From the NCBI RefSeq assembly GCF_000760295.1, contig NZ_JNBA01000014.1:1-64000 (forward strand): a stretch of 64,000 nt of DNA. Reading direction: 5' to 3'. Source of the stretch: Prochlorococcus sp. MIT 0701 (GTDB lineage: Bacteria; Cyanobacteriota; Cyanobacteriia; PCC-6307; Cyanobiaceae). Below, piece after piece: positions 23,157-26,792 of this stretch. A model generated the notes under the pieces. It searched no databases. It saw only the letters and a list, made by a program, of their open reading frames with translations, and had not been told where the DNA came from. The stretch's first letter is position 1. Every line of letters starts with the position of its first letter. Position numbers and translations under genes: made by a program.

Positions 23157-24629
23157 CTATCTCAGGGCTTGGTTTGCTGAGTTGATCATGGCTTCCCCGC
23201 GCCGGTGGATCTCATTGGCGTAGTTGGTCCAGGTGCCTTGGCCCCAATAGCGGAAGCAGCTGGTTTCTAGCAGAAGCAAGTAGAGCAGAGCTTCTTGATA
23301 GTGCAGGGTTTGTGTGATTGCTGGATCCTTTGCCACCAAGGGATCAAACAGCTGGTGGAACTTGGCGCTGAGGCTGTTGATCGGTTCTAGAACATTTTCA
23401 TAGCCCTTGATCCAGCTGAGGTTGTTGGTCCAGGACGCGCCGTCCATTGAGAAGGAGGGATCTGTTTCTTTGAGGCCGCTGATGGTCGCTTCGATTGATT
23501 CCGGGTTGATGGGGCTGTCAGTGTTATGCCACAGCTTGTGTTGTTGAATGGCCTGAATCTTCGGGTGACCAGAGGCTTCGACACCGGCGGCCTCCAGTAA
23601 CTCCAAATATTCTGTGCCGTTGAGCGCCACTGTGCTTACAGCATCAACCTGTGAGGCAATGGTTTGATGGGCTTGGATAAAGGCGGCTGGAAACTCATTC
23701 ATCATTACGCCTCCATTTTCTCCGTCGGCAATTTGAGAGACCAATGATGGAATCGATTTGCCTGCCAGTGATTGTCTTTCTAGGCCTAATGCTTCGTGAT
23801 AGGGCTGCATCTGTCCTACCAATTTGGTGTCTGAGCCCTGGGTTTTGATCAAGGCCACAATGCTGACTGTTTCCCCTCTGGAGTTGCGAGCTACAAGTTG
23901 ATTTGGACCGTATTTTTGTGCGTGGCGAAGGCATGAGCCATCGAGGTTCTCAACGCTGTTTTCTTGAACAAGTAGCCAACGGTATCCGCAATCTCTTAGG
24001 GCTTTCACCAATTCATAGAGGGTGTCTGGATGGTTGGGAAGGTGCATTTCCGGTGGCGAGAAACCCCTCACCCGTTGCAATGCTTGCTGCCCAAACATGG
24101 CAGCGAATTGGTGTTGCCAGGCCAGGATTTGTAGCTTTAGATCTGGGATAGGAGTGGAAGGTGCAACGGCATGGCTCCAAAAGGTGCCGAGCCATTCCAC
24201 ATGGGGTTGAAGAGTGGGATCGCATGCGAGACGTTTGAGCGCCTCGAGAATGTCGAGGCGGCCCATTTGCTCAACACCCCAGAGCAAGTTGCCTGAGTAA
24301 TCCAGCATGATTCGAGGGTTGCATCCTTCTTGAATCAGTTGGGGAATGATGTCTGCGAGGCGCTTGTAGCAATGGGCAAAGGGTTCGGCATTGTGGTTAT
24401 CGCCTTCTTCGCTGTGCTCCAGCATGTATTGCAGATGCGAGATCAGTTCTCCATTTGACCCTGCTGGAATTGTTGGCTGATGCATGTGGAGAGCACAGGC
24501 AAAGGCTGACTGAAACTGATCCAGGTTGAGATTGCTGTTTGGCAACACAACAGGATTAGCTTGCTGAACCAGGGCAAGAATTTCGGCTTCATAGCCAGCG
24601 ATTGGAGGCAAGTTTTGGTTGAGCATCAA
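23157..24629 (-). CDS. glycoside hydrolase family 57 protein
   Basis: Encodes 490 aa. GH57 motifs in order: HMHQP (48-52), WLGTFWSHAV, GFSPPEMHLP (nucleophile Glu194) and ADGENGGVMMNEF (Asp302/Glu304). GH57 enzymes act on alpha-glucans such as glycogen by branching or disproportionation. The typical cyanobacterial context is glycogen metabolism in the cytoplasm. The start is odd: the frame is open further upstream to a TAG at 24750-24752 with no ATG or GTG, so the TTG at 24629 is the best visible start. This same TAG is the stop of the neighbouring integrase fragment. Confidence 0.85.
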   Translation of the reverse strand: MMLNQNLPPIAGYEAEILALVQQANPVVLPNSNLNLDQFQSAFACALHMHQPTIPAGSNGELISHLQYMLEHSEEGDNHNAEPFAHCYKRLADIIPQLIQEGCNPRIMLDYSGNLLWGVEQMGRLDILEALKRLACDPTLQPHVEWLGTFWSHAVAPSTPIPDLKLQILAWQHQFAAMFGQQALQRVRGFSPPEMHLPNHPDTLYELVKALRDCGYRWLLVQENSVENLDGSCLRHAQKYGPNQLVARNSRGETVSIVALIKTQGSDTKLVGQMQPYHEALGLERQSLAGKSIPSLVSQIADGENGGVMMNEFPAAFIQAHQTIASQVDAVSTVALNGTEYLELLEAAGVEASGHPKIQAIQQHKLWHNTDSPINPESIEATISGLKETDPSFSMDGASWTNNLSWIKGYENVLEPINSLSAKFHQLFDPLVAKDPAITQTLHYQEALLYLLLLETSCFRYWGQGTWTNYANEIHRRGEAMINSANQALR

Positions 24630-25538: not shown

Positions 25539-25634
25539 GCTCATCACTAGCAAAGACATTCAAAGCTCTGCTGGCGATTGCTGCAGAGCACTTCAGTTGA
25601 AAGTAGAAAGGGACAACACGTACTGATGAAATAG

Positions 25635-25730
25635 ATGAGTGGCAAGGCTCTTTTTCTGGCAATCGCCCTGCTCCTCGCTGGCATCGCTCTATGTGAACCC
25701 CTGATCGTCAGATTCCTCCAACCAGGTTGA
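25635..25730 (+). CDS. 31-aa membrane micropeptide, tandem copy 1
   Basis: MSGKALFLAIALLLAGIALC followed by EPLIVRFLQPG. It is one hydrophobic helix with a short polar N-terminus and an L-Q-P end. It pairs with 26113 (same length and the same LQP ending) and 25769. The stretch TTGAAAGTAGAAAGGGA lies upstream of this copy and a close version upstream of copy 3. The conserved plan strongly suggests translation, although the size is small. Confidence 0.6.
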   Translation: MSGKALFLAIALLLAGIALCEPLIVRFLQPG

Positions 25731-25768
25731 GTTTTGATCAGTCCTTCACTCTTTCAAGTGCTGCATTG

Positions 25769-25903
25769 ATGAACGGCAAACTTCTTGTGCTGGCAATCGT
25801 CCTAACCCTTGTGGGTATAGCTGTTTATGAATTTGTACTGGTTGGTGGGGTTAGCTTGGAAGGAATTGCCAGGTTTGCCAATGGGGATCTTGGCCCGACT
25901 TGA
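25769..25903 (+). CDS. 44-aa membrane micropeptide, tandem copy 2
   Basis: MNGKLLVLAIVLTLVGIAVY, then EFVLVGGVSLEGIARFANGD and LGPT. The first 20 residues match copy 3 closely (MNGK...IAVYE). The longer, extra C-terminal part is unique. It has one transmembrane helix. The function is unknown. Confidence 0.55.
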   Translation: MNGKLLVLAIVLTLVGIAVYEFVLVGGVSLEGIARFANGDLGPT

Positions 25904-26112
25904 GCGAGCATGATTTCTAAACGGTGCAATCCCTTGGCTTGCAGTTCTTTTCCCCATTTTTAATTGGTGGAGACCGAAAGCCTTGCCCAGTTGTTGGCTT
26001 GAGATGGCCAGGCCAACATGCTCACCGCAACAGTGGCAGGTCCTTGCAAGACTGGACTCGCACAGCACTTGAGCAGAAAGTAGAAAGGGAAGTTCCTGTC
26101 TCCACGACATCG

Positions 26113-26208
26113 ATGAACGGCAAAGTACTGGTGAGCGGAATCGTCCTGATCTTGTTGGCGATAGCTGTGTATGAATCCCTTCTCTTTAGAACTCTCCAAC
26201 CTGCTTGA
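26113..26208 (+). CDS. 31-aa membrane micropeptide, tandem copy 3
   Basis: MNGKVLVSGIVLILLAIAVY followed by ESLLFRTLQPA. It has the same start, length and LQP end as copy 1. The upstream AGCAGAAAGTAGAAAGGGA aligns with copy 1, consistent with a duplicated promoter or UTR. The three are about 40 and 210 bases apart. Confidence 0.6.
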   Translation: MNGKVLVSGIVLILLAIAVYESLLFRTLQPA

Positions 26209-26504: not shown

Positions 26505-26792
26505 ATGACCTCCTTAGACAACCGCATCGCTGACTATCAGGACAAAGGCGAGGTTCTCGACACCTATTTCGCTTCCGCTAGCGCCTCTGTAAAACCCAAG
26601 TTCTATGCAATGAGCGATGGTGAGTACAAGGCACACCATGACGCTCAGAAGGCTGCACGCGTTGCAGACCTCGAGCAGACCAAGGCTGCATACCTCAGCT
26701 CCCTTGAACGTCTTGAAATTCAGATCGCACGGTTGACTCTTGAGGGAGCCCTGTCAGACCAGGCTAAGGAGCTAGCCCGTACTGCGAGCTAA
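26505..26792 (+). CDS. MYSLF-family small protein, diverged copy 3
   Basis: Encodes 95 aa from the ATG at 26505 (MTSLDNRIADYQDKGEVLDT). The family core is kept as FYAMSDGEYKAHHDAQKAAR, then VADLEQTKAAYLSSLERLEI. The MYSLF start is lost but the core and the Leu-spaced helix remain. This suggests the helix and the DxEYKA segment are the constrained part. A longer reading from 26403 is less likely. Confidence 0.65.
   Translation: MTSLDNRIADYQDKGEVLDTYFASASASVKPKFYAMSDGEYKAHHDAQKAARVADLEQTKAAYLSSLERLEIQIARLTLEGALSDQAKELARTAS

Follow-up and report, generated by a model that had tools for sequence, protein, structure and literature searches.

Three small genes for predicted single-span membrane peptides in Prochlorococcus sp. 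MIT 0701 and their family in marine picocyanobacteria

Three related open reading frames lie close together in the window, the whole 64,000-nucleotide stretch of DNA analyzed here (Table 1). An initial annotation had predicted three related peptides of 31–44 amino acids (aa) at this site, and they were found at the positions that it gave. The common start, the LQP terminus that copies 1 and 3 share and a [VL][YC]E motif at the midpoint likewise agreed with its description. A 69-nt core is present three times across the copies, with 68–77% DNA identity, and a genome-wide search (G000, 2.59 Mb, 99.98% complete) detected these three copies only, with no fourth. The near-tandem layout that had been proposed applies to copies 1 and 2, which are 38 nt apart, but copy 3 sits another 209 nt on and has its own upstream element. 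The repeat noticed upstream of copies 1 and 3 is present (87% identity), although it extends over 31 nt and not 14 nt as first described; it is probably a promoter or 5'UTR element. Because copy 3 is both distant and preceded by its own element, two transcription units are likely, one with copies 1 and 2 and one with copy 3.

Table 1. Positions in the window of the three peptide genes and of the elements upstream of copies 1 and 3.
Feature	Start	End	Strand	Length	Description
Element 5' of copy 1	25583	25613	+	31 nt	Direct repeat; GCAGAGCACTTCAGTTGAAAGTAGAAAGGGA
Copy 1 ORF	25635	25730	+	31 aa	Predicted single-span membrane peptide; MSGKALFLAIALLLAGIALCEPLIVRFLQPG
Copy 2 ORF	25769	25903	+	44 aa	Read from its own ATG; N-terminal helix as in copies 1 and 3 plus a conserved 19-aa C-terminal tail
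Element 5' of copy 3	26060	26090	+	31 nt	Direct repeat; GCACAGCACTTGAGCAGAAAGTAGAAAGGGA
Copy 3 ORF	26113	26208	+	31 aa	Nearest of the three copies to the family consensus; MNGKVLVSGIVLILLAIAVYESLLFRTLQPA

Coding was assessed against G003, a complete genome of the same genus (2,410,873 bp) that we take to be Prochlorococcus MIT9313 and that carries all three copies in the same order as the window. The lineage of these two genomes is presumably low-light Prochlorococcus LLIV, the clade we associate with MIT9313. Between the two genomes, the three copies differed by 25 synonymous and 4 nonsynonymous changes (Sd and Nd, respectively; pS 0.295, pN 0.017, pN/pS 0.058; Fisher p = 2.4e-12), and most differences fell at third positions. 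The counts were 7 synonymous and 1 nonsynonymous for copy 1, 12 and 3 for copy 2, in which the 19-aa tail was identical in protein, and 6 and 0 for copy 3. A preference for synonymous sites had been named beforehand as the test on which the coding claim should stand or fall; run here on orthologues, it upheld that claim. Synonymous change was also favored when the three copies were compared with one another (pS 0.48–0.59, pN 0.21–0.33), and within five Synechococcus groups pN/pS was 0.13–0.19. Copies 1–3 are thus coding and under purifying selection.

The open frame 5' of copy 3 provided an internal control, with 6.5 synonymous and 18.5 nonsynonymous changes (pN/pS of about 1). Selection therefore acts on the MNGK-starting peptide and not on a longer frame, and since the extension of copy 3 is neutral, this copy starts at the ATG at 26113. 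The in-frame stretch 5' of the ATG of copy 2 was also unconserved. A longer protein made from upstream starts was rejected on the basis of the copy 3 extension and of in-frame stops found just 5' of some Synechococcus copies (L061, L063).

In each of the three copies, hydropathy analysis revealed a 19-residue hydrophobic core with a score of 2.4–2.6. By this measure the peptides are predicted to span the membrane, which supports the membrane nature ascribed to them in the initial annotation.

A weak match in the Synechococcus-like genome G008, MNGKLLVAGIVGFFLLFFVMESWLMRGLPH, was used as the seed for a profile, and the resulting profile found homologues across a family of proteins of 30–33 aa with the pattern M-[NDS]-G-[KR]...(helix)...E21..[RQ]26-G-L. 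Copy 1 matched the family with E-values of 7.4e-19 (A1) and 4.8e-11 (A3). A broader profile gave clear matches (E ≤ 1.1e-7) in 73 of 400 picocyanobacterial genomes, and these were separated by a gap from the next matches, at E 0.005 or worse. Among 57 distinct sequences, M1 was invariant, G3 and K/R4 were each present in all 57, E21 in 53 and R/Q26 in 55. In genus g57, precisely one copy was present in 24 of 24 near-complete genomes; in g5, 17 of 19 near-complete genomes had one to three copies, and the other two yielded no convincing copy even at a looser threshold. Further members occurred in genera g25, g10 and g68. We take the genera that hold the family (g57, g5 and so on) to be marine Synechococcus, including strains that we recognize as WH7803 and RCC307. 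In most marine Synechococcus, the family is therefore represented by a single copy, and it is conserved. The tandem triplet was found in the Prochlorococcus lineage of the window genome and G003. No clear member was detected in the rest of Prochlorococcus (including MED4 and SS120) or in the other cyanobacterial families searched, and three incomplete genomes of the same genus (74–85%) gave no match. A scan of a separate genome-contig collection, from which close relatives may be missing, confirmed no relatives.

Searches of Pfam, NCBIfam and PHROGs returned no credible match; the best were sub-threshold, for example PHROGs matches to copy 2 at E 0.02–0.05. The family profile had 0 matches in PDB at E ≤ 10, Rfam had no match in the region of the locus, and no clear family member was seen in phages, viral contigs or plasmids. 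The open-access literature, as distinct from RefSeq annotation and most subscription papers, contained no description of the family. Provisionally, we regard the family as real and apparently undescribed, although its general kind is already known. The ocean's main photosynthesizers include marine Synechococcus and Prochlorococcus. A gene carried by almost every genome of two marine Synechococcus genera, yet missing from the libraries checked, points to an overlooked basic membrane function. Its absence from most Prochlorococcus marks something that this lineage may have given up, and the triplet represents the opposite course in one Prochlorococcus lineage.

The neighbors of the family genes varied between clades, and none was constant. 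About 18 g57 loci shared one common neighborhood, which included a gene that we read from its sequence as DUF924-like. A second common neighborhood was shared by about ten g5 loci, mostly beside purK; the remaining g5 copies were at varied places, and in some Synechococcus genomes two or three copies were scattered over different contexts. In G008, one copy lay behind sdhB and another in a purK-type neighborhood. This distribution suggests two ancestral loci followed by differential loss. The clearest operon-like arrangement present in more than one genome was in an RCC307-like lineage (L088, L128; G028), the only one in which a TM2-domain gene was seen as neighbor, where the start of the peptide gene overlaps the TM2 gene's stop codon (ATGA). 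In two other genomes (G287 and G203), the peptide gene lay approximately 1–2 kb from a relative of the gene at 23157–24629 of the window.

Taken as a whole, our best explanation, which we hold to be probable but well short of certain, is that copies 1–3 are paralogues of an unnamed family of single-span membrane proteins of about 31 aa in marine picocyanobacteria, which would serve a membrane complex either as a small accessory subunit or as its regulator. Each peptide would insert as one helix. The invariant G3 and K/R4 would lie at a cytoplasmic N-terminus, which is placed inside because of K/R4; the opposite edge of the membrane would hold E21 and R/Q26. The helix may pack against a larger protein or complex in the membrane and stabilize or tune that partner, in the manner of the 29–46-aa subunits of photosystems, cytochrome b6f and NDH-1 or of small regulators of membrane enzymes. 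The triplet, probably expressed as its two units (copies 1 and 2, copy 3), may serve dosage or differential regulation.

Small photosynthetic and NDH-1 subunits have a single hydrophobic helix. The family resembles PetN, PetL, PsaM, PsbM, PsbT, NdhP, NdhQ and others, which are 29–46 aa long and encoded by small genes (PMC5126843), in consisting of small single-helix proteins from small genes. Unlike the known small subunits of the photosystems, b6f and NDH-1, it has no PDB, Pfam or NCBIfam match and is restricted to some picocyanobacteria. KdpF, CydX, MgrB and AcrZ are also single-span helices, of 30–50 aa, and share this feature with the family peptides, which differ in having no Pfam or NCBIfam match and no known target nearby. 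Yfr6, like the family, is a short conserved peptide of marine picocyanobacteria, and its antisense partner made it a toxin candidate (Axmann 2005 PMC1242208; Steglich 2008 PMC2518516). We located Yfr6 in MED4 and SS120 by its published coordinates; the peptide read there (MTLIYRGQKY...) is hydrophilic with YRG repeats and unrelated in sequence, and identity with the Yfr6/Yfr14 toxin candidate was rejected.

Chance open reading frames made alike by DNA duplication alone would agree with the small size of the peptides and with nothing else, and this reading is refuted by the 25 synonymous versus 4 nonsynonymous changes and by homologues in 73 genomes. Leader peptides (uORFs) governing downstream genes would suit such short frames, and a 95-aa gene does follow copy 3, at 26505; however, the amino-acid sequence is kept while the downstream gene varies and is often convergent, and three copies are stacked at the window locus, so that we disfavor this explanation as highly improbable. 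The initial annotation had offered two guesses, small subunits of a membrane complex or toxins of type I toxin-antitoxin systems, i.e., hydrophobic membrane-damaging peptides silenced by antisense RNA. Type I toxins such as Ldr, Ibs, TisB and Fst are hydrophobic, about 20–35 aa long and sometimes arranged in tandem. The window peptides are similar in being short, hydrophobic and single-span (31–44 aa, core 2.4–2.6) and duplicated in tandem, and it would also fit that some Synechococcus genomes have two or three copies scattered over different contexts. Unlike these toxins, the family is near-universal (24/24 g57 and 17/19 g5 genomes), mostly single-copy and strongly conserved, and does not have the patchy, mobile-DNA-linked distribution that is usual for type I toxins, though not strictly defining. 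In addition, G3, K/R4, E21 and R/Q26 are conserved, phages, viral contigs and plasmids contained no member, and the region had no Rfam match. We consider the toxin reading improbable. The family is retained almost universally and is under purifying selection, its polar residues are conserved, and no member was found on mobile DNA; an accessory role in a membrane complex, as a small subunit or a regulator, fits better, and the subunit proposal was the better of the two guesses, even though no constant neighbor marks a partner.

Within the accessory-protein reading, base rates favor subunits of photosynthetic complexes for cyanobacterial proteins of ≤50 aa, because 19 of those annotated in Synechocystis are photosynthetic proteins, with a function known for only five of the rest (PMC5126843). 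The family was not found in most Prochlorococcus or in the other cyanobacteria searched and therefore is no universal subunit. Against our best explanation stand the lack of a constant gene neighbor that would point to a partner and the lack of a PDB match although PDB includes the subunits of cyanobacterial complexes with solved structures; short queries have little power in this search. We propose tentatively, as less likely than not, that the peptides are an undescribed, lineage-specific subunit of a complex of photosynthesis or respiration in marine Synechococcus; it was not found in most Prochlorococcus and is tripled in tandem, with distinct variants, in one low-light Prochlorococcus lineage. 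The regulator half of our best explanation can be stated apart, as a small regulator of one transporter, ATPase or protease (as MgrB, KdpF and AcrZ) rather than a structural subunit. Solitary genes at most loci, the varying neighbors, a patchy distribution that suits a niche function and the ATGA overlap with the TM2-domain gene, which suggests translational coupling, all agree with such a regulator, but no known target gene lies nearby and the TM2 neighbor was observed in the RCC307-like lineage only; we regard it as rather unlikely. A more specific identity, a succinate dehydrogenase anchor, was considered for G008, where the peptide gene follows sdhB by a few nucleotides and has a good ribosome-binding site. 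It was rejected, as the adjacency to sdhAB is found in G008 only, and the peptide is present in 24/24 g57 genomes, yet no g57 genome was among the SdhB matches.

The DNA around the triplet is plastic. In G003, approximately 12 kb of extra DNA (G003:C1 1067308–1079534, L109) lies between the equivalents of window positions 25553 and 25579, just 5' of copy 1; a 469-bp direct repeat there extends up to the start codon of copy 1. We read its proteins as ArsR-, GAPDH-, porin-, PhoB- and PstS-like, and a PhoR-like frame is apparently broken there. At G003:C1 ~1071080–1071127 (L032), a fourth upstream element (1071114) is followed by a start codon, after which the frame enters unrelated sequence and is lost; an hli-like frame lies nearby on the opposite strand. 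Downstream of the triplet, the 95-aa gene (26505–26792 of the window) encodes a hydrophilic protein with a pN/pS of about 0.2 against G003 and no Pfam match. In several g57 genomes (L055, L074, L093), an inverted repeat, ACCACCATGATGGTGGT or a weaker form of it, is located approximately 20–50 nt 5' of the peptide start and is a possible regulator site.
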